64,000 bases of DNA from Exiguobacterium marinum DSM 16307 (GTDB taxonomy: Bacteria > Bacillota > Bacilli > Exiguobacteriales > Exiguobacteriaceae): NCBI RefSeq assembly GCF_000620845.1, contig NZ_KK211189.1, forward strand, positions 1,441,662-1,505,661. Direction: 5' to 3'. Each line of letters opens with the position of its first letter. The first letter of the stretch is position 1. Below are positions 5,279-21,400 of this stretch, piece after piece. Position numbers and translations under genes: made by a program. A model generated the notes under the pieces. The model made no database searches. It was not told the origin of the DNA and saw only the letters and a program-made list of their open reading frames with translations.

Positions 5279-5297
5279 TCATCCGTATGCAGAAGGA

Positions 5298-5328
5298 CCG
5301 AAGACCACTCATTGGTTTTCGGTTTTTT
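5298..5328 (+). terminator. Intrinsic terminator after the chemoreceptor gene
   Basis: Stem CCGAAGACC with GGTTTTCGG, followed by TTTTTTG. It closes the lipoprotein-chemoreceptor operon. The next 200 nt up to comEA hold no gene I can support. Confidence 0.85.
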
Positions 5329-5528
5329 GTTGTTTCGAATGTTTCGGGGCCCTTAATCTATTGTAGTAAGAAAATGGATGATTATCTTTCAGATTGTATG
5401 AAGGTCGGGTACATAGCAGGCAGTCAAACGACTTTGTTGAGAATAGATTAATATCGAGAACGGGAAAAGTGTAGTCACTCTGGATTCGGCATACTAGATT
5501 CAATAGTCGAAACAGGGGGAGAATCGTC

Positions 5529-6104
5529 TTGGAAAAGTGGAAGCAGGTCATCATCGGTGTTGTCGTCGTCCTGTTTTTAGGTGTTGGTTATTTATTTTAT
5601 AATAAAGAATCAGAAGAACGTGTCGTCGATGAATTCGTTGTAGAATCAGAAGAAGTGGTTCCGTCTGAGACAGTAGAGCGATTAGAAATCGTCGTCTATG
5701 TCACAGGCGCGGTCGAGTCTCCGAACGTCTATACCGTGCCAGAAGGCGCAAGAGTCGGGGATGTTCTCTCATTGGCAGTATTAACAGATGAAGCTGACCC
5801 GGAACAGTTAAACTTGGCGCAACTACTCGTGGACGGGGTGAAAATCATCGTACCGAAAAAAGGGGATGCCCCTGTTGCGCAAGAGGTACCAAGCACAGAG
5901 CTGGAACCAAATGGGGTACACGTGAATAGTGCCACGAAAGACGAGTTAATGTCGGTCCCTGGAATTGGTCCTGCTAAAGCAGACGCGATTCTGAACCACC
6001 TGAAAGAGAATGGTCCATTTAAATCATACGAGGACTTAGGTAATGTGAAAGGATTTGGAGAGAAGACATTAGAAAGTATGAAATCTTACTTATTGGTACC
6101 ATGA
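5529..6104 (+). CDS. comEA: Competence DNA receptor ComEA
   Basis: A 191-residue membrane-anchored DNA-binding protein of the competence pseudopilus uptake system. It has an N-terminal transmembrane helix (about residues 8-24), an acidic linker, a SLBB-type domain (about 55-105, VYVTGAVESPNVY) and a C-terminal tandem helix-hairpin-helix domain (about 130-190, with VPGIGPAKADAIL) that binds double-stranded DNA outside the membrane. The TTG start has AGGGGGAG about 7 nt upstream. comEC follows after a single base. B. subtilis has comEB between them; here it is absent. Confidence 0.95.
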   Translation: MEKWKQVIIGVVVVLFLGVGYLFYNKESEERVVDEFVVESEEVVPSETVERLEIVVYVTGAVESPNVYTVPEGARVGDVLSLAVLTDEADPEQLNLAQLLVDGVKIIVPKKGDAPVAQEVPSTELEPNGVHVNSATKDELMSVPGIGPAKADAILNHLKENGPFKSYEDLGNVKGFGEKTLESMKSYLLVP

Positions 6105-10467: not shown

Positions 10468-10504
10468 GACACGGTATGTATGAGAAGGATAGGTGAACCC
10501 ATAT

Positions 10505-12328
10505 ATGAACAAACAAGAATTAGAGAATCGTCAGAAGAAGATTCGTAACTTTTCCATCATCGCGCACATCGATCATGGAAAGTCGACACTCGCTGACCGT
10601 ATTCTTGAGAAAACTGGTGCACTCACAGCTCGTGAGATGAAAGAGCAGACACTCGACGCAATGGATTTAGAGCGCGAGCGAGGTATTACGATTAAACTGA
10701 ACGCCGTCAAATTGAACTATACCGCAAAAGATGGAGAAGAGTATATCCTTCATTTGATTGACACGCCAGGACACGTCGACTTCACGTATGAAGTGTCACG
10801 TTCGCTTGCGGCATGTGAAGGTGCGATTCTCGTCGTCGATGCTGCACAAGGTATTGAAGCACAAACACTTGCGAACGTTTACCTAGCACTCGATAACGAC
10901 CTTGAAATCATTCCGGTCATCAATAAAATCGACTTGCCATCAGCGGATGTGGAGCGCGTTCGTCAAGAAATTGAAGATGTTATCGGACTTGACGCGAGTG
11001 ATGCCGTCCCGACTTCTGCAAAAGCAGGAATCGGAATCGAAGAAATCCTTGAACAAATCGTCGAACTTGTTCCACCTCCAACGGGTGACCCGTCAGAACC
11101 GTTACAAGCATTGATCTTCGACTCATACTATGATGCCTACCGTGGTGTTGTCGCTTCGATTCGAATCGTCAATGGCTCAGTCAAAGTAGGAGATAAAGTT
11201 CAAATGATGGCGACAGGGAAAACGTTCGAAGTGACTGACCTCGGTGTGTCGACGCCTAAGCCGGTCTCGGTCAAAGAATTGAATGTCGGTGATGTTGGTA
11301 CGCTCTCAGCATCCATCAAAACGGTCGGGGATGTTCGGGTCGGAGATACGATTACACTGGCGAAGAACCCGTCAACCGAACAACTTCCTGGTTACCGTAA
11401 GATGAATCCGATGGTGTACTGCGGATTGTATCCGATCGATGCAGCCAACTACAACGACCTACGTGAGGCGCTCGAAAAGCTTCAACTTTCCGATGCGGCC
11501 CTCGAGTTTGAGCCTGAGACGTCACAAGCGCTCGGATTCGGTTTCCGTTGTGGGTTCCTCGGAATGCTCCACATGGAAATCATTCAGGAACGGATTGAGC
11601 GTGAATTTGGAATTGACTTGATTACGACGGCACCATCGGTTATCTATCACGTGACGACGACTTCAGGCGAAGTCATCCATGTCGATAACCCATCAAAAAT
11701 GCCGGAACAACAAAAAGTTGAATCGATTGAAGAACCATACGTCAAGGCAGCGGTCATGACACCGAATGACTATGTTGGTGCCATCATGGAGCTTTGTCAG
11801 AAGAAACGCGGGACGTTCATCGATATGCAATACATCGATACGACACGTGTTAAAATCACTTATGAGATTCCACTTAGTGAAATCGTTTATGACTTCTTCG
11901 ATCAGTTGAAATCTAGCACGAAAGGCTATGCGTCTCTCGATTATGAATTGATCGGCTATCGTCAATCGCGTCTCGTGAAGATGGACATCTTGCTCAATAA
12001 CGAAGTTGTCGATGCCCTCAGCTTCATCGTTCACCGCGACTTCGCTTACGAGCGTGGGAAGGTCATCGTTGAGAAGCTCAAGGCACTTATCCCGCGGATG
12101 CAGTTCGAAGTTCCGGTTCAAGCTGCCGTCGGTACAAAAATCGTGGCCCGTTCTACGATTAAAGCCCTTCGTAAAAACGTTTTGGCTAAATGTTACGGAG
12201 GAGATATCTCGCGTAAGCGGAAACTCCTCGAGAAGCAAAAAGAAGGTAAGAAACGCATGAAGATGGTCGGGTCGGTCGAAGTCCCACAAGAAGCGTTCAT
12301 GTCTGTACTTTCCATGGACGAAGAATGA
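10505..12328 (+). CDS. lepA: Elongation factor 4 (back-translocase GTPase LepA)
   Basis: A 607-residue translational GTPase that acts on stalled or mis-translocated ribosomes and aids 30S biogenesis. G1 is at AHIDHGKST near residue 17, G3 at DTPGHVDF near 83 and G4 at NKID near 138. EF-G-like domains II, III and V follow, then the LepA-specific C-terminal domain with [20 protein letters not shown] near 560-580. The ATG at 10505 is chosen because AGGTGA lies 8 nt upstream; the in-frame GTG at 10493 is too close to that site. Monocistronic, with its own promoter and terminator. Confidence 0.97.
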
Positions 12329-12340
12329 TTATAGCCAGTC

Positions 12341-12370
12341 GCCTTGATCTCCGGATCAGGGCGTTTTTTT
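12341..12370 (+). terminator. Intrinsic terminator after lepA
   Basis: Stem GCCTTGATC/GATCAGGGC (one wobble) with loop TCCG, followed by T7. Confidence 0.88.
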
Positions 12371-12442
12371 GTTTTAGGCAGGAAATAGCACTTCATTTAA
12401 GGAAGGTTACACCCTTAGACAGTCTATAGAGGAGGTAACACT

Positions 12443-13513
12443 GTGTCGACGTATACATATTCCGCGGGCCCAGGCATGCTACCAAAAGAAGTGATGCAAG
12501 AGGTGCAACAACATCTACTGACGTTTGAGCACGAAGGAATTTCGATTATTGAAACGAGTCATCGCTCCGAGTCATTTCAACAAATAGTCGACTCGCTTGA
12601 AGAGAGACTCAGAAGAGTCATGAAAATTCCTGAGAATTATGCGGTCTTATGGCTTCAAGGTGGGGCGACCCTTCAGTTTTCAATGATTCCGATGAACTTG
12701 CGGAAGCGAAATCGATTTGCCTATGTCGATACAGGCATCTGGTCTAAAAAAGCGATTAAAGATGCTCGACTCTTCGGACAGGTCGATCTCCTCTATCCAC
12801 GTATAGACGAAACGGGTGAGATGTCATTTGACCAAAGTCTGGTTCAAGAGGTGGATTATCTTCATGTGACACTCAATAATACGATTGAAGGAACCCGGTT
12901 CACCGACATTCCGGAAACGAACGTCCCGCTCATCGCAGATGCGTCATCCAATATTCTCGCCGAACAGATCGACGTCGAACGTTTTGGCATCATATATGCC
13001 GGAGCCCAGAAGAATATCGGACCTGCAGGACTGACGGTCGTTATTATACGTCGAGATTTGATTCAATCCGCTGAATTACCAAGCTATCTTCATTATGCGT
13101 CGCATGTCGATACGTTATTTAATACACCGTCGACGTTCAGTATGTATGTGGCCGAACGTGTGTTGAAGTGGATAGAGGACTGTGGAGGCGTTGAAGCGAT
13201 GGAACGGTTGAACCGTAAAAAAAGCGAGACGCTCTATACGTTCCTTGAGCAATCGAATCTGTTTTCTTCTCTTGTGTCGGGGAAGCGTCGTTCGTTGACG
13301 AACGTCCCGTTCACGACAAGTGACAGTGAAAGTGATCGACGTTTCGAGCAATTTGCACGGGAACGTGGATTGCATGAACTGGGTGGGCACCGTTCCGTCG
13401 GTGGACTGCGCGCGAGTTTATATAACGCGATGCCAATCGAAGGTGTAGATCGCCTTGTCGAAGTCATGAAAGCTTTTGAGGAGGAGACGTATGTATCACA
13501 TCAAAACATTTAA
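12443..13513 (+). CDS. serC: Phosphoserine aminotransferase
   Basis: A 356-residue PLP enzyme of aminotransferase class V that converts 3-phosphohydroxypyruvate and glutamate to O-phosphoserine. The N-terminus YTYSAGPGMLP is the SerC signature; the PLP lysine is in AGAQKNIGPAGL near residue 193, and VLWLQGGATLQF near 70-81 is conserved. GTG start with a strong GAGGAGGT site. Its 3' end overlaps serA by 23 nt. With serA and the DUF1015 gene it forms a three-gene serine operon inserted between lepA and hemW. Confidence 0.95.
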   Translation: MSTYTYSAGPGMLPKEVMQEVQQHLLTFEHEGISIIETSHRSESFQQIVDSLEERLRRVMKIPENYAVLWLQGGATLQFSMIPMNLRKRNRFAYVDTGIWSKKAIKDARLFGQVDLLYPRIDETGEMSFDQSLVQEVDYLHVTLNNTIEGTRFTDIPETNVPLIADASSNILAEQIDVERFGIIYAGAQKNIGPAGLTVVIIRRDLIQSAELPSYLHYASHVDTLFNTPSTFSMYVAERVLKWIEDCGGVEAMERLNRKKSETLYTFLEQSNLFSSLVSGKRRSLTNVPFTTSDSESDRRFEQFARERGLHELGGHRSVGGLRASLYNAMPIEGVDRLVEVMKAFEEETYVSHQNI

Positions 13514-14654
13514 CCAAATCGCTGCTGCCGGTCTGAAGCGTTTTGGGTCGAGTGAGTATGTCATCAACGCATCAGATCAAGCAGATGCCTGGGTGTTGAG
13601 AAGTCATAATGTACACGATGAAACCATTCCACCTCACTTGCTTGCCATCGCAAGGGCCGGGGCAGGTGTGAACAATCTTCCACTCGACCGACTCGCAAAA
13701 CAAGGCATCGTCGCTTTTCATACACCAGGAGCGAATGCGAATGCCGTGAAGGAACTCGTCCTTGCTAGCATGGTTCTCTCAGTACGTCCCATTCTTAAGG
13801 GATTTACTTGGGTGAACGAACAAGTATCAGAGTCGCAATCTCAATTAGAGGAAGCGATGGAACGACAAAAGCGACAGTTCCTCGGAGCAGAGTTGAGGGG
13901 GAAAAAAGTAGGCATCATCGGTCTCGGAGCTATCGGTGCGTCACTTGCCAACGATCTTCTCCAACTTGGGGTCGATGTCATCGGATATGATCCCCATCTC
14001 TCGGTCGATGCCGCTTGGAATATCTCAAAACATGTAACACGTGCCAAACATTTGAGTGAGGTGCTCGGAGCGGTCGACTTGTTATCGATTCATATGCCAT
14101 TGACAGAGGAGACGCGGTACAGCATTGATTTAAGTTGGTTTGAACGGATGAAACCAGGCATGACCGTCTTAAACTTTGCGCGTGGTGAGCTCGTGAAAGA
14201 TGATGATCTACTAAAGGCGTTTCATCACCATGTCGGATTGTATGTGACCGACTTCCCGCGTCATGCGCTCATCGGTCATCCGCAAGTGATGGCACTGCCT
14301 CATCTTGGCGCATCGACAAGGGAATCAGAAGTTAACTGTGCAATTCAAGCCGCCGAAACGCTAAAATTGTATCTTGAGACAGGGAACATTCGATCATCTG
14401 CCAATTTCCCGAACGTTGAACTTCCGTATACTGGAAAACGTCGCCTTGGAATTTTACACCGGAATGTCCCGAATATGGTCGGTCAAATCACAGGTGAGCT
14501 CGCATCACACGGAGTGAATATTGATAATATGGTCAATCGCAGCCGTGGGGAAATGGCATATACGTTAATCGATTTAGACAACTTCGAACATGAACCGTTA
14601 TCGATTCACGCACTGTACGAAATCAAGGGCGTCATTCGCGTCCGAGAATTTTAA
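13491..14654 (+). CDS. serA: D-3-phosphoglycerate dehydrogenase, short form
   Basis: A 387-residue NAD-dependent dehydrogenase catalysing the first committed serine step. The NAD site GLGAIGASLAN lies near residue 145; catalytic motifs NFARGELVKDDDLL near 226 and HLGASTRESE near 268 are present. A C-terminal ACT domain (about 320-387) follows directly, without the long ASB domain of the roughly 525-residue B. subtilis enzyme; such short SerA forms are typically serine-feedback regulated through ACT (family knowledge). The ATG at 13491 has GAGGAGGAG just upstream, lying within the serC coding region. Confidence 0.93.
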   Translation: MYHIKTFNQIAAAGLKRFGSSEYVINASDQADAWVLRSHNVHDETIPPHLLAIARAGAGVNNLPLDRLAKQGIVAFHTPGANANAVKELVLASMVLSVRPILKGFTWVNEQVSESQSQLEEAMERQKRQFLGAELRGKKVGIIGLGAIGASLANDLLQLGVDVIGYDPHLSVDAAWNISKHVTRAKHLSEVLGAVDLLSIHMPLTEETRYSIDLSWFERMKPGMTVLNFARGELVKDDDLLKAFHHHVGLYVTDFPRHALIGHPQVMALPHLGASTRESEVNCAIQAAETLKLYLETGNIRSSANFPNVELPYTGKRRLGILHRNVPNMVGQITGELASHGVNIDNMVNRSRGEMAYTLIDLDNFEHEPLSIHALYEIKGVIRVREF

Positions 14655-14664
14655 GGAGGAAACT

Positions 14665-15846
14665 ATGGTCGTATTTAAACCGTTCAGCCCATACATGCCA
14701 AAACATCCAGAAAATGTCGCCGCAGACCCGTATGATGTCGTATCGATGGAAGAGGCACAAGCAATCCTTTCAAAAAACCGTGACTCATTTTTAGCTGTCG
14801 ATAAGCCGGAAGCACTCCAGTCAGACCTTCCACTTGATGAATGGGGAAAACTTGCACGAGAAGAGTTAGAACGCTTGTATGAACACGAATTAACAGATCA
14901 CCCAAACGGATTTTATGTGTATCGGCTGACATCAGAGCAGCATCAACAGACCGGGTTGGTCGCCACGTTTTCAGTGATGGACTACGAAGCGGGTCGAATC
15001 AAGATTCATGAACATACCCGTGAGACGAAGGAGCGGGAACGAATCGAGCATGTCCAGACGACAAAAGCACACACTGGACCAATTTTACTCAGCCATCCCT
15101 CTCACGCGATCCTGAAACAGATTTTACATGGTGCGACAGAGGGTCCCCCGCTCTTTTCATTTACGGATGAGCGTGGTGTAAAACACGAAGGCTTCATGAT
15201 TCCGAACCGCGAACTTGCGCGAGTCATGATGATTGGAGCGACGATTCCGTCCGTCTATATTGCAGATGGACATCATCGTGCCAAAGCAGCGGCAGTCGTG
15301 GCGGGGATAAATAAAGACGATGCGCAAAAAAACGAGCGGTCGCATTTCTTGGGTGTGCTGTTTCCGAGCGATGAGTTGATGATTTTGCCTTATCATCGAC
15401 TGTTGTCGCATATTGCCCCAGAAGAAGTAGAGCATATGCTAGAAGGACTGTCATTTTCTTACGAGGTGAAGCCCGAGGATAGCCTTGTCCTTCCAAAGGA
15501 ACACGGAGTATTTGGAGCTGCATATCGAGGGAAATTTTACAGGATAACGAAACGAAAAGAGGATGCGGCTCTCGATGTCGCAATCTTACAGCGTGATATC
15601 CTCACTCCATATTTCAACGTCGCAGATATTCGTACTGATGCCAGAGTCGACTTCGTTGGGGGGAACCGATCGATAACAGAGCTGGAGCAATTGGTGAAGT
15701 CACCAGATCGCTTACTCCTTACGTGTCATGAAACGACGATGTCTCAGCTGATGCGTGTGGCTGATGACGGGGGACAGATGCCTCCAAAATCGACTTGGTT
15801 CGAACCGAAATTGAAGAGCGGTCTGTTCATTCACCGATTCGATTGA
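14665..15846 (+). CDS. DUF1015 family protein of the serine operon
   Basis: A 393-residue cytosolic protein of the uncharacterised DUF1015 family, often found with serA and serC. Visible motifs: FKPFSPYMPKHPE at the N-terminus, a ParB-like region with a TGPILLSHP segment, and YIADGHHRAKAA near residue 200. That DGHHR motif resembles the core of ParB/Srx-type proteins, which include the free-serine kinases SerK and SbnI. No serB is present in this window, so handling of O-phosphoserine (phosphatase or reversible kinase) is a reasonable inference but unproven. The ATG at 14665 has AAGGAGGAA 6 nt upstream and starts 10 nt after serA. Confidence 0.85.
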   Translation: MVVFKPFSPYMPKHPENVAADPYDVVSMEEAQAILSKNRDSFLAVDKPEALQSDLPLDEWGKLAREELERLYEHELTDHPNGFYVYRLTSEQHQQTGLVATFSVMDYEAGRIKIHEHTRETKERERIEHVQTTKAHTGPILLSHPSHAILKQILHGATEGPPLFSFTDERGVKHEGFMIPNRELARVMMIGATIPSVYIADGHHRAKAAAVVAGINKDDAQKNERSHFLGVLFPSDELMILPYHRLLSHIAPEEVEHMLEGLSFSYEVKPEDSLVLPKEHGVFGAAYRGKFYRITKRKEDAALDVAILQRDILTPYFNVADIRTDARVDFVGGNRSITELEQLVKSPDRLLLTCHETTMSQLMRVADDGGQMPPKSTWFEPKLKSGLFIHRFD

Positions 15847-15912
15847 TGGTGCAGGCTGGAAAGAATGAACGAAAAGCGTTATAAATGGAATGAGAAGAAA
15901 GGGGTGGCCGTA

Positions 15913-17067
15913 TTGGCTAAAGCCGTATATCTTCACATTCCATTTTGTGAACATATTTGTTATTACTGTGATTTCAACAAGGTGTTTTTGAAAAACCAAC
16001 CTGTTGAGGAATATTTAGATGCATTAGAACGAGAAATGATGTTAACACTTGAAGCGTTTCCGACAGAGCGAATCGATACGATTTTCATCGGAGGCGGGAC
16101 ACCGACCGCACTTAACGAAGCGCAGATGGTCCGGCTCATGGACATGGTCCGTCGACACCTGCTACCGCTCGCGTCGGATGACCTTGAATATTCGGTGGAA
16201 GCGAACCCGAATTTCGTAAGCGCGGAAAAACTTGATGCGATGAAAGCCGGGGGAGTCAATCGGCTTAGCTTCGGGGTGCAAACATTCGATGATGGTGGAC
16301 TAGAACGAATCGGTCGAACACATCGGGCGGAAGATGTGTTTGAAACCGTGAACGAGGCGGCGAAACGCTTTGAGAATATCTCGATTGACCTCATGTTCGG
16401 CTTACCGGAACAGACGCTCGAGCAGATTGACCGCGATTTGACGTTAGCCCTTCAACTGCCGATTCAACATGTATCCTCTTATTCTTTGATTCTCGAGCCA
16501 CATACCGTGTTTGCGATACAAGACCGAAAAGGCAAGCTCCGTTTACCGGGGGAAGACGTCGAAGTAGAGATGTATCTAAAGGTGATGGAGACGCTTGAGC
16601 GTCATGGGCTCAAGCAGTATGAGATTTCGAATTATAGTCTGCCTGATCGGGAGAGCCGTCACAACCAGGTCTATTGGCGAAACGAAGAGTACTACGGATT
16701 CGGTGCAGGCGCGCACAGCTACTTGAACGGGACGCGGCGTGCCAATATTGCCCCGATCCCTCACTATATTAAAGCAGAGGGAATCCCGGTGAAGCGGGCG
16801 AATGAGCTTGAAGAAGTGGAAAAAATGGAAGAAGAACTATTCCTTGGACTACGCATGCGCTCTGGAGTCTCGCTTCAGACGTTCGCCGAGAAATATGGTC
16901 GAACACTCGATGATGTGTTTGGTCACGTAATCGATGATTTAGTGAATAAAGCACTGATTGAGCGTACGGATTCACACATCCGTTTGACGGCGTCTGGTCT
17001 CCCGCTCGCCAATGAGGCATTCGCTGCCTTTATCGGGGAAGCGAAACTCGATCACGCCACTTCATAA
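15913..17067 (+). CDS. hemW: Radical SAM heme chaperone HemW
   Basis: A 384-residue radical SAM protein with the cluster motif HIPFCEHICYYCDF (CxxxCxxC) at about residues 8-21, GGGTPTAL near 60 and SFGVQTFDD near 120; the HemN-type C-terminal domain covers about 300-375. These proteins were once annotated as oxygen-independent coproporphyrinogen oxidase, but the HemW subgroup binds heme and inserts it into respiratory enzymes. The TTG at 15913 is preferred, with AAAGGGGTGG 6 nt upstream and the usual family N-terminus; an in-frame ATG at 15865 would add 16 residues. It precedes the heat-shock cluster as in B. subtilis. Confidence 0.93.
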   Translation: MAKAVYLHIPFCEHICYYCDFNKVFLKNQPVEEYLDALEREMMLTLEAFPTERIDTIFIGGGTPTALNEAQMVRLMDMVRRHLLPLASDDLEYSVEANPNFVSAEKLDAMKAGGVNRLSFGVQTFDDGGLERIGRTHRAEDVFETVNEAAKRFENISIDLMFGLPEQTLEQIDRDLTLALQLPIQHVSSYSLILEPHTVFAIQDRKGKLRLPGEDVEVEMYLKVMETLERHGLKQYEISNYSLPDRESRHNQVYWRNEEYYGFGAGAHSYLNGTRRANIAPIPHYIKAEGIPVKRANELEEVEKMEEELFLGLRMRSGVSLQTFAEKYGRTLDDVFGHVIDDLVNKALIERTDSHIRLTASGLPLANEAFAAFIGEAKLDHATS

Positions 17068-17112
17068 AAAATGGACAAGTCCCTTATTTAAGAGGAACTT
17101 GTCCATTTTATT
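17066..17112. terminator. Bidirectional terminator between hemW and the DUF1054 gene
   Basis: ATGGACAAGT pairs with ACTTGTCCAT across a 20-nt loop that can extend the stem (CCCTT/GAGGA with wobble). Flanking A-run and T-run make it usable from both sides. Confidence 0.8.
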
Positions 17113-17118
17113 GTAGAA

Positions 17119-17724
17119 TTATAAGACAAGGTCGCGATAGAGCGGTGTGAGTCGACCGAACGTATCTTCGACCAACGCAAGAAATGCATCCTCATTTTGA
17201 AGAATCGATGCATCGGCCGGTAGTTGTCGCCCGATTAAGAAATCAGCCTTTTTGACGTTTCCGAATCGTTCTAGTAATGCTTGAACGTCTTCATTTGACG
17301 TATCTTCAACGAGGAACGCCTCTTTTTTCATATGGTCTCCCGCGATGTGGAAATCGGGGAAAGTTGATTTAATATCAATCTGCTGTAATCGCTTCGCAAT
17401 CGCGTTTTTATTCGGCATCTCATAGATAAACGCGAGCCAGATGAACACACGATCGTCGAAGAGGCCGACTTGTAGGTGAGGATGCTTCTTGTAGCCGCGC
17501 TTATCATGGCAGATTGCCATCCATGTATCTTTTGGTGGATTCACAGTCCTGCGCGCATGTTTTGCGACATGCAAATAAAGAGGGATACCGATATCCGCCT
17601 CAAGCTCTGGCCCGACCTCGTCATAAATCCTGTGGAAAAGCGGTTGAATATCAGAACGAATTCCTGACATCCTCGAATCGAGTCCTTCACGCTTAAATAC
17701 TTCAAATTGTTTTGTTGTAAACAT
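17119..17724 (-). CDS. DUF1054 family protein (YktB-like)
   Basis: A 201-residue soluble protein matching the DUF1054/YktB family (B. subtilis YktB is about 210 residues). Recognisable features are FTTKQFEVF at the N-terminus, HVAKHARRTVNPPKDTW near residue 52 and KKHPHLQVGLFDD near 80. No catalytic motif is evident and the function is unknown. GAGGTGAT ribosome-binding site. It lies alone on the minus strand, convergent with hemW and divergent from hrcA, and is not part of the B. subtilis order at this point. Confidence 0.85.
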   Translation of the reverse strand: MFTTKQFEVFKREGLDSRMSGIRSDIQPLFHRIYDEVGPELEADIGIPLYLHVAKHARRTVNPPKDTWMAICHDKRGYKKHPHLQVGLFDDRVFIWLAFIYEMPNKNAIAKRLQQIDIKSTFPDFHIAGDHMKKEAFLVEDTSNEDVQALLERFGNVKKADFLIGRQLPADASILQNEDAFLALVEDTFGRLTPLYRDLVL

Positions 17725-17813
17725 TTTATCACCTCATATTCTATCATAACGAAACGGTTCTTCTTTTTCAGGTTTGCAGTCCAGAAAAAAGTGAAAAAAT
17801 CGGAGTGTATGAA

Positions 17814-17841
17814 TTGACAAATAGTGAGAACATGATAATAT
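17814..17841 (+). promoter_or_regulatory. Sigma-A promoter of the hrcA-dnaK operon
   Basis: Perfect TTGACA (17814-17819), then TAATAT (17836-17841) at 16 nt spacing. The CIRCE operator begins 11 nt downstream, around the transcription start. Confidence 0.8.
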
Positions 17842-17852
17842 TTGAAGTGTGA

Positions 17853-17879
17853 TTAGCACTCGTTAAATATGAGTGCTAA
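17853..17879 (+). promoter_or_regulatory. CIRCE operator (HrcA binding site)
   Basis: Perfect inverted repeat TTAGCACTC, 9-nt spacer, GAGTGCTAA, identical to the CIRCE consensus. HrcA binds it and represses the operon under non-stress conditions, with GroE needed for HrcA activity; the element therefore autoregulates hrcA and controls grpE-dnaK-dnaJ. Confidence 0.98.
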
Positions 17880-17916
17880 TAAATCGAGGTAACTTTTATC
17901 AGAGAGGAGTGATGTT

Positions 17917-18939
17917 GTGCTGACAGATCGCCAATTGCTCATTCTTCGAGCAATTATTGACGATTACATTCAGACGGCTCAACCAGTCGGTTCACGTACA
18001 TTGTCGAAACGAGACGACTTAACGTTTAGCTCAGCGACGATTCGGAACGATATGGCCGATTTGGAAGACATGGGGTTGATTGAAAAACCGCATACTTCTG
18101 CAGGTCGTATCCCGTCTGAAGTCGGATATCGATATTATGTGGACCATCTTGTTGAGAAGCGGATTATCGACGAGCGGGAGACTGGTCGTTTAGAAGAACG
18201 TTTAAAACAATCTTCAAAAGAGTCTGAGATTCTGATTCGCCAAGCTGCAGACCTCCTTTCTGATTTGACCAGTTACACAACGGTCGCCCTCGGTCCAAAT
18301 AGCCAAATGGAGAGGTTGGCACGTGTGGACTTTATGCCATTAGATGAGCGACGAGGTGTCGTTCTCATTGTCACGGACCAAGGCCATGTCGAACATCGAA
18401 CGGTCATATTTGAATCACGTGTAGCTCCTGAAGTCATCGAGGAAACGATTCGATTATTAAATGATCGTCTCGTCGGAACGTCGATTGGACAATTGAAAGT
18501 CCGAATCGGGGAAGAAGTTGCGAAATTGCAACTCGCTCAGCGACAACAATACGAAAATATGATGCAACTGATTCAATCAACCGTCGGTATTCAAACGCCG
18601 TCCTCGCTTTATCTCGGAGGCAAAAAGAATATCTTTAACCAGCCTGAATTCCAAACCATTGACACGTTACGACCGTTTCTGGAATGGATAGATGAGCAGG
18701 AACGGCTGACCCACTGGCTCGAATCGTTGCCAAATCGCGAGATTTATGTGAGCATTGGGAGCGAGAATGGAATTGTCGCCCTTCAGAATTGCAGTGTCAT
18801 CACTTCGGATTACACACTCGACGGAAAAACATTCGGAACGATTGCTATGATCGGTCCGACTCGAATGGATTATCGTCATGGGGTCCAAATGATGGGGCAA
18901 ATCATCGAAGCGTTGCGACGAACGAAACTAGATGAGTGA
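17917..18939 (+). CDS. hrcA: Heat-inducible transcription repressor HrcA
   Basis: A 340-residue repressor with an N-terminal winged helix ([10 protein letters not shown] start; [20 protein letters not shown] near residues 40-60) and a C-terminal GAF-like and dimerisation domain. It binds the CIRCE element 38 nt upstream of its own GTG start and links class I heat-shock gene expression to GroEL availability. The GTG start has AGAGGAG 8 nt upstream and gives the exact family N-terminus. First gene of hrcA-grpE-dnaK(-dnaJ-prmA-rsmE). Confidence 0.97.
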
Positions 18940-18956
18940 CGGAAAGGAGTTTTACT

Positions 18957-19544
18957 ATGACAGCAGATCATCAAAACGGGCGCGAGCAAGAAGACGTGCT
19001 TGAAGAAAAATCTGTAGACCCGACACAAACAGAAGAGAACGGGTCAACTGAATCAACGGAAGACGAGGTTTTAAATGCTGAGATTGTGGAAGAAAGTTCT
19101 GAGGGGACGGACTTACAAAAAGAAATCGAAGCGTTGAAAGCGAGCGAGCTCCGAATTCGCGCCGACTTTGACAACTTCCGTCGTCGGACGAACGAAGAGA
19201 ACGCCAAGCGCGTCAAATTTGCTTCACAGTCTGTCATTGAAAAATTGATTCCGCTTATTGATAACTTTGAGCGAGCACTTCAAGTAGAGGCAACTTCAGA
19301 AGATGCGAAGCAACTTCAAGCGGGCGTTGACATGGTTCATCGTCAATTACTCGACGTCTTGAACGTTGAGCAAGTCGAAGCAATCGAGGCGGTCGGACAG
19401 CCGTTCGACCCAAACTACCATCAAGCAGTCATGCAAGAGCCTAGTGATAAGTACGAATCAGGCATCGTGACGATGGAGCTTCAAAAAGGATACACGATGC
19501 ACGGTCGAGTTATTCGTCCGAGTATGGTAAAAGTTGCAGAATAA
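18957..19544 (+). CDS. grpE: Nucleotide exchange factor GrpE
   Basis: A 195-residue co-chaperone that releases ADP from DnaK. An acidic disordered N-terminus (about 1-60) precedes a long coiled-coil dimerisation helix and a C-terminal beta-wing containing VEAIEAVGQPFDPNYHQAV near 142-160 and GYTMHGRVIRPSMVKVA at the end. The ATG at 18957 with AAAGGAG 7 nt upstream is chosen over an in-frame start at 18936 that overlaps hrcA and lacks a site. Confidence 0.96.
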   Translation: MTADHQNGREQEDVLEEKSVDPTQTEENGSTESTEDEVLNAEIVEESSEGTDLQKEIEALKASELRIRADFDNFRRRTNEENAKRVKFASQSVIEKLIPLIDNFERALQVEATSEDAKQLQAGVDMVHRQLLDVLNVEQVEAIEAVGQPFDPNYHQAVMQEPSDKYESGIVTMELQKGYTMHGRVIRPSMVKVAE

Positions 19545-19570
19545 CATTACTTAACGAGATGGAGGAATGA

Positions 19571-21400
<1,830 letters not shown>

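Follow-up and report, generated by a model that had tools for sequence, protein, structure and literature searches.

The stretch of Exiguobacterium marinum DSM 16307 DNA analysed here (64,000 nucleotides of contig NZ_KK211189.1, hereafter the window) carries a serC-serA-DUF1015 cluster, and the protein encoded by its third gene is most likely a phosphoserine phosphatase-like enzyme replacing SerB, a reading held with moderate confidence and in which the enzymatic activity itself is predicted. Serine synthesis from 3-phosphoglycerate takes three steps; SerA and SerC would supply O-phosphoserine, and the DUF1015 enzyme, with its SerK/SbnI-type fold, would convert it to serine in SerB's place. 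The computed support consists of the fold, the homology to the free serine kinase SerK, a recurrent cluster with serA and an aminotransferase gene, the lack of any SerB over the model cut-off and serine T-box leaders ahead of the cluster in five relatives. Coming from sequence comparison and modelling, this support covers DUF1015 as the candidate and not the reaction; the active site presumably handles phosphoserine, with HE(115-116) as a putative catalytic pair and serine as the probable product. Very many Bacillota have no assigned last-step enzyme for serine, and blanks of this kind serve as a basis for predictions of serine auxotrophy; one candidate family that combines the right operon with a serine/phosphoserine-kinase fold makes the question experimentally testable.

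The predicted structure carries much of this argument. An AlphaFold2 model of the DUF1015 protein was built from a 20-sequence alignment (mean predicted local distance difference test score, pLDDT, 90.9; predicted template modelling score, pTM, 0.89). In a Foldseek comparison with the PDB, 9/9 matches at E <= 0.001 (E 2.2e-7 to 2.4e-6) are SbnI, the staphylococcal siderophore serine kinase (5ujd, 5uje, 6nr6), SerK, the ADP-dependent free serine kinase of Thermococcus (TK0378; 5x0b and relatives), or 1vk1, a SerK relative from P. furiosus, the tenth row reaching only E 1.5e-2. VIA, which was run on Foldseek's own list and thus re-examines its hits without being an independent search, gave Z scores of 11.3-12.9 for nine SerK/SbnI/1vk1 chains (210-225 aligned residues, root-mean-square deviation 3.7-5.7); beyond these, human sulfiredoxin (Srx) scored 5.3 and 5.2, and the other rows shown fell below 3. 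SbnI is the top match in both (E 2.2e-7, Z 12.9). The match spans the ParB/Srx core together with the C-terminal part of SerK, over ~220 residues in the case of SerK, and so covers far more of the protein than the match to sulfiredoxin and the ParB CTPases, which share the core; unlike canonical ParB, DUF1015 has neither a helix-turn-helix nor a C-terminal dimerisation domain, PF06245 being its sole Pfam match at E <= 1. As modelled, the DUF1015 protein has the SerK/SbnI fold over most of their length, and the original prediction of a ParB/Srx-type core like that of SerK and SbnI is borne out by a fold comparison that places these two first. DUF1015 differs from SerK by ~80 additional residues at the N terminus, among them an invariant PYD, and identity in the structural alignment is 13-15%.

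HMMER searches of PDB sequences, with a single DUF1015 sequence or a 20-row profile, gave chance matches only and did not reach SerK; it took comparisons of folds, and of profiles with profiles, to connect the two. Aligned by hhalign with 121 DUF1015 sequences, SerK gave a probability of 95, E 2.5e-8 and a score of 60.8, against a top score of 28.6 among 60 column-shuffled SerK controls; with 20 DUF1015 rows the match was limited to the C-terminal stretch (E 1.1e-4, probability 57), all these E-values being those of a single comparison. The 121-sequence match covers DGHHR and the C-terminal motif, pairing SerK IVDGHHR with DUF1015 YIADGHHR and SerK GEVYSPKTTR with DUF1015 GGQMPPKSTW, MPPKSTW standing opposite YSPKTTR; in this comparison with SerK, its SPKTT-type C-terminal motif thus has a counterpart in MPPKSTW. 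Judged from these profiles, DUF1015 is homologous to SerK through DGHHR and the C-terminal PKST motif.

Both proteins have DGHHR and a C-terminal [SP]PK[ST]T motif, and both would also have HE before a helix. Residue E30 of SerK, which we take, going by PDB titles, to be the catalytic glutamate, is mutated (E30A, E30Q) in entries 5x0e, 5x0g, 5x0j and 5x0k, according to their titles. It lies within KPHEQ, which presumably precedes a helix in the ParB fold, and the stretch of DUF1015 proposed as its equivalent, with an HE resembling the PHE of SerK, is KIHEHT, just before the predicted helix 120-133. H115, E116, T118, K122 and R126 are invariant in 81/81 DUF1015 sequences. The YIADGHHR and MPPKSTWF columns are conserved by construction, as the 80 wide-scan loci described below were fetched with these patterns; the five residues just named lay outside them. 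In the 20 loci lacking the strict PPK[ST]T motif, H115, E116, T118, R126, D201, H203 and H204 are invariant (20/20), as are R205, R245, P373, K375 and T377, and K122 is not.

The genomic setting ties this fold to serine synthesis. The tight operon originally described in the window holds: all three genes lie on the + strand at 12443-15846, serC and serA overlapping by 23 nt (13491-13513) and serA being separated from DUF1015 by 10 nt (14655-14664), with a GGAGG-type ribosome-binding site ahead of each start. The third protein matches PF06245 (DUF1015) with E 9.8e-65 and 219 bits against a gathering score of 25.8; the window SerA falls below the NCBIfam 3-phosphoglycerate dehydrogenase model TIGR01327 (196.7 bits, cut-off 454). 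A wide genome scan yielded at least 587 confirmed DUF1015 relatives, the best 80 of which were examined as loci; within these best 80, the closest named relative is Exiguobacterium aestuarii (80% identity). In the host's order, whose 38 genomes yielded 30 loci, serA stands directly upstream of DUF1015 in 30/30, and 40/80 wide-scan loci have a same-strand serA within 300 bp; the clustering is not due to chance. At 48/80 loci serA, serC or an AGXT-type aminotransferase gene occurs within 4 kb on the same strand, and 42/80 have serA plus an aminotransferase gene within 4 kb, making the serA-DUF1015 link strong but not universal. Serine clusters with DUF1015 were found in Exiguobacterium, Listeria ilorinensis, Vagococcus, Clostridium, a Desulfitobacterium metagenome-assembled genome (MAG) and Lachnospiraceae, and in other phyla in MAGs named Elusimicrobiales and Zixiibacteriota. 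No fusion of DUF1015 to SerA or an aminotransferase occurs among the 120 loci (the 80 and the 40 introduced below). Unlike SbnI, which reportedly makes phosphoserine for a siderophore, DUF1015 is encoded in a serine operon, and unlike SerK it occurs in bacterial serine operons, in an order without a SerB-family protein over the cut-off. We class DUF1015 as a bacterial branch of the fold seen in the free serine kinases, one associated with serine synthesis.

This association is concentrated in one part of the family. Forty further loci, each from a different Bacillota family, were picked among the matches listed; serine-gene neighbours occur in 14/20 of those with the strict motif PPK[ST]T (subfamily I) versus 4/20 of the remainder. 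The strict motif misfiles two loci (L191 and L200) that belong to subfamily I by eye, and with these refiled the counts become 16/22 versus 2/18. The second subfamily (L198, L201, L203-L217, L219) measures ~430-480 amino acids between stops and has a C-terminus of the MPQKSTYFYPK type as opposed to the MPPKSTWFEPK type; it keeps the HE, DGHHR and PK.T residues and lies mostly away from serine genes (2/18 beside them, by the by-eye count).

SerB, originally noted as absent from the window, is lacking from the whole host genome (2.81 Mb, 2 contigs, 100% complete), where TIGR00338 finds nothing better than 35.9 bits (cut-off 144.15). On the genome side, the suggested check for serB homologues found no SerB-family match over the cut-off in the host or in the 38 genomes of its order, and none in these 38 even at E <= 1e-15; all 38 have DUF1015. 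Across a sample of 398 Bacillota genomes, TIGR00338 passes its cut-off in a single one, which is without DUF1015, and DUF1015 is present in 207. Because 0/38 genomes of the order and 1/398 Bacillota pass, lack of SerB is the rule in the 398-genome sample and not a peculiarity of the host. DUF1015 is not a universal SerB substitute, since 14/18 Bacilli of the sample have an NF003764-type SerC and no DUF1015. Over all 398 genomes, both proteins are found in 84, DUF1015 only in 123, SerC only in 42 and neither in 149; a clean SerC-DUF1015 co-occurrence was not obtained, NF003764 detecting one SerC type only. In some loci an AGXT-type aminotransferase replaces SerC. In a control set of 14 genomes, DUF1015 is present in Bacteroides ihuae, Methanosarcina acetivorans and Thermotoga maritima, the last without a SerB match at E <= 1e-20. 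NF009994, considered as a complementary enzyme, passes its cut-off in none of the 398 Bacillota (12 match at E <= 1e-40); as it matches none of the 14 control genomes, the comparison is uninformative. The reaction proposed for DUF1015, phosphoserine to serine, is the same as that of SerB and YsaA, which are haloacid dehalogenase (HAD) enzymes, and of PspA, a histidine phosphatase; unlike these, the DUF1015 protein has no HAD (TIGR00338 included) or histidine-phosphatase match in Pfam or NCBIfam at E <= 1.

RNA leaders of relatives bear on the direction of the reaction. T-box leaders (RF00230, above the gathering score) stand 5' of aminotransferase-serA-DUF1015 in Clostridium magnum (L141), Clostridium sp. 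cel8 (L158) and Lutispora (L151), and T-box core sequences below the Rfam threshold stand 5' of serC-serA-DUF1015 in two more loci (L181 and L189); in each of the five the specifier, read by eye, is UCC, which codes for serine. Expression under T-box control rises when the cognate tRNA is uncharged, so DUF1015 would be co-induced by serine starvation in these five relatives, and as a serine consumer would be wasteful under such starvation, the biosynthetic direction is favoured: by analogy with these leaders, DUF1015 would turn phosphoserine into serine rather than serve serine breakdown or assimilation. Published accounts agree on such control for serC and serA, including serC of C. thermocellum.

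It is against this background that a true free serine kinase, forming phosphoserine from serine and a nucleotide, with SerC and SerA run backwards to 3-phosphoglycerate (serine/glycine assimilation) or with some other use of the phosphoserine, appears rather unlikely. The nearest fold relatives are serine kinases and the nucleotide motif is kept; moreover, as with DUF1015, serK of some archaea has 3-phosphoglycerate dehydrogenase and aminotransferase genes as neighbours, including some Desulfurococcales, and Makino et al. suggest an assimilation route (PMC5120207). However, the serine T-box leaders of the five relatives predict induction at serine scarcity, the wrong condition for serine use, and a kinase would give no account of the final step of serine synthesis in genomes in which SerB is not found.

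Several further observations concern RNA elements near DUF1015. Control is apparently tandem in 4/5 T-box loci, a second T-box-like antiterminator preceding the first gene (Table 1). At L182 (10883-11132), a T-box leader with a specifier read as UCC precedes a gene for an AGXT-type aminotransferase that lies ~1.9 kb 3' of DUF1015, and at L140 (1979-2075) a tetrahydrofolate riboswitch lies just 3' of the DUF1015 gene. We take COG4198 to be the same family as DUF1015. A glycine riboswitch upstream of COG4198 genes is reported from metagenome fragments in PMC2211319; Rfam found none near DUF1015 in 39 scanned loci of the 120, nor in the window.

Conversion of phosphoserine to serine by the DUF1015 enzyme could follow more than one course. 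Going by general hydrolysis energies, the reaction phosphoserine + ADP/AMP -> serine + ATP/ADP would be uphill by ~20 kJ/mol. Simple reversal of a kinase is therefore an unlikely source of net serine, and direct hydrolysis, a nucleotide relay or a low-energy acceptor would be required. In the first case phosphoserine would be hydrolysed directly, with E116 as acid/base; in the second the phosphate might pass to the bound nucleotide, to be hydrolysed from it as in the nucleoside triphosphate-hydrolysing ParB relatives; in the third it might be handed to a low-energy acceptor. In ParB-fold proteins, substitution of the arginine of the DGHHR-type motif is reported to abolish nucleotide binding (PMC12704722), and by analogy the arginine kept in DUF1015 points to a nucleotide in the site; for SerK the reported phosphate donor is ADP, not ATP (PMC5120207). 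It may be proposed, tentatively, that subfamily I of DUF1015 represents a phosphoserine phosphatase of a new structural class, derived from the ParB-fold serine-kinase branch and reversed by way of a bound nucleotide that is then hydrolysed, and that it completes serine synthesis in much of the Bacillota and in other phyla without a recognised SerB.

Less likely still than a kinase is a non-catalytic sensor of serine or phosphoserine and nucleotide that would regulate SerA or SerC, with phosphoserine dephosphorylated by a HAD or histidine phosphatase yet to be characterised, or with serine made from glycine by GlyA. The host does possess possible enzymes for such a scheme: nine small HAD proteins were classified (PpaX, two beta-phosphoglucomutases (beta-PGM), HAD type II, HAD-IIA, YjjG, a weak phosphoglycolate-phosphatase-like (PGP-like) protein, YqeG and Cof), further HAD-type matches lie in open frames of 271-401 and 670-895 amino acids, and there are three histidine phosphatases. 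The HAD enzyme YsaA of B. subtilis is moreover reported to be active as a phosphoserine phosphatase (PMC8002221). An approximate HAD query, intended as a putative YsaA, has its best matches in a patchy HAD family, weak in the host (E 1.4e-11) and strong in 6/11 other genomes of the same family (G008, G010, G017, G028, G029, G034). However, none of the known phosphoserine phosphatase models (SerB, HAD families, histidine phosphatases) is matched over its cut-off in the host genome: no HAD match reaches the SerB cut-off, and the best histidine-phosphatase scores are 66 bits against a cut-off of 350 for PspA and 56 against 277 for phosphoserine phosphatase 1. Catalytic-type SerK residues are also kept in DUF1015, which speaks against a purely sensory role. 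A phosphotransferase that hands the phosphoserine phosphate on to a different acceptor and frees serine without loss of phosphate would sidestep the energy barrier of ATP formation, and it has phosphoserine-bound structures of the SerK-type fold (titles of 5x0e and 5x0j) and the ThrH precedent with homoserine as acceptor (cited in PMC7478625) on its side, but with no acceptor identified, the partners considered being serA and the aminotransferases only, it is very unlikely.

Several observations weigh against DUF1015 as the enzyme replacing SerB. Of 15 Bacillota genomes that match SerB-type proteins fully or partially (E <= 1e-20), eight also have DUF1015, and both occur together in the control genomes of Bacteroides ihuae and Methanosarcina acetivorans, where DUF1015 is thus not necessarily the sole such enzyme. 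No serA or serC lies within 4 kb in 32/80 loci, several of them so near a contig end that a neighbouring gene could have been missed. A T-box core is present in just 5/46 clusters with at least 400 bp upstream, and Rfam found no RNA leader or serine T-box ahead of the window operon. The kept DGHHR suits a user of nucleotide, hence a kinase, as well as a phosphatase. Since hhalign does not align the HE region with SerK E30 with confidence, HE(115-116) is only a putative counterpart of SerK H29-E30. The phosphoserine step could also be carried out by an uncharacterised phosphatase, for example a HAD of the YsaA type, and the GlyA route from glycine to serine is named as an alternative, and as a way out for Dehalobacter, in PMC7478625, but left unsettled in the Dehalobacter paper itself (PMC4751268).

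The literature leaves a gap that a DUF1015 enzyme would fill. PMC9026213 assigns no enzyme to the last serine step in 450 gut genomes from diverse Firmicutes, and the widespread serine auxotrophy predicted for Firmicutes is called a paradox (PMC7478625). In five Dehalobacter genomes the last step was not found, yet D. restrictus grows without serine (PMC4751268). A ParB-type fold for DUF1015 is already mentioned in passing, as 'DU1015', in PMC12704722, the accessible part of which gives it no serine role; similarly, a serC / NAD(P)-binding protein / DUF1015 neighbourhood in two Porphyromonas species is noted without interpretation in PMC11316588. No paper tying DUF1015 to phosphoserine processing was found in the open-licence literature, outside which most subscription journals fall. 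Relative to that literature, the full match to SerK and SbnI, the functional reading of the recurrent serine cluster and the proposal that DUF1015 fills the phosphatase gap appear to be new.

Table 1. Features of the serine cluster (window positions) and, in the last four rows, apparently tandem T-box regions of related loci (locus positions, oriented to DUF1015)
Feature	Position	Strand	Remarks
serC, phosphoserine aminotransferase	12443..13513	+	GTG start; NF003764 465.7 bits, cut-off 253
serA, 3-phosphoglycerate dehydrogenase, short form with weak ACT domain	13491..14654	+	ATG start; PF02826, PF00389, PF01842 (weak)
DUF1015 gene, 393 amino acids, SerK/SbnI-like predicted fold, candidate phosphoserine-processing enzyme	14665..15846	+	ATG start; PF06245
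Intrinsic-terminator-like hairpin 3' of upstream gene	12340..12363	+	10-pair stem, then T run
PYD motif, residues 22-24, in extra N-terminal region of DUF1015 protein	14728..14736	+	invariant in examined sequences of both subfamilies
KIHEHTRETKERERIEH, residues 113-129	15001..15051	+	HE at 115-116 directly before helix; proposed SerK H29-E30 counterpart (E30 equivalence putative)
YIADGHHRAKA, residues 198-208, ParB/SerK phosphate-binding motif	15256..15288	+	aligned with SerK IVDGHHR
GGQMPPKSTWFEPKLKSGLFIH, residues 369-390, C-terminal motif	15769..15834	+	aligned with SerK GEVYSPKTTR
Tandem T-box, L141	7275-7700		
Tandem T-box, L181	~5280-5600		
Tandem T-box, L189	~5300-5570		
Tandem T-box, L151	6294-6620		

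The serine cluster sits within the window block 10493-21400. The gene upstream of it (10493-12328) is presumably lepA-like, and to its 3' side lie what we take to be a hemN-like gene (15865-17067) and then hrcA-, grpE- and dnaK-like genes, so placed that the cluster, between the lepA-like and hemN-like genes, looks like an insertion into a conserved lepA-hemN-hrcA-grpE-dnaK block. Because the terminator-like hairpin at 12340-12363 follows the upstream gene, the cluster probably starts its own transcript; a simple scan of the + strand gave no promoter for it, and terminator-like sites in the region are not in excess (2 observed versus 3.6 expected from shuffles). Further downstream, a minus-strand open reading frame of 201 amino acids (17119-17724) appears to resemble DUF1054/UPF0637.

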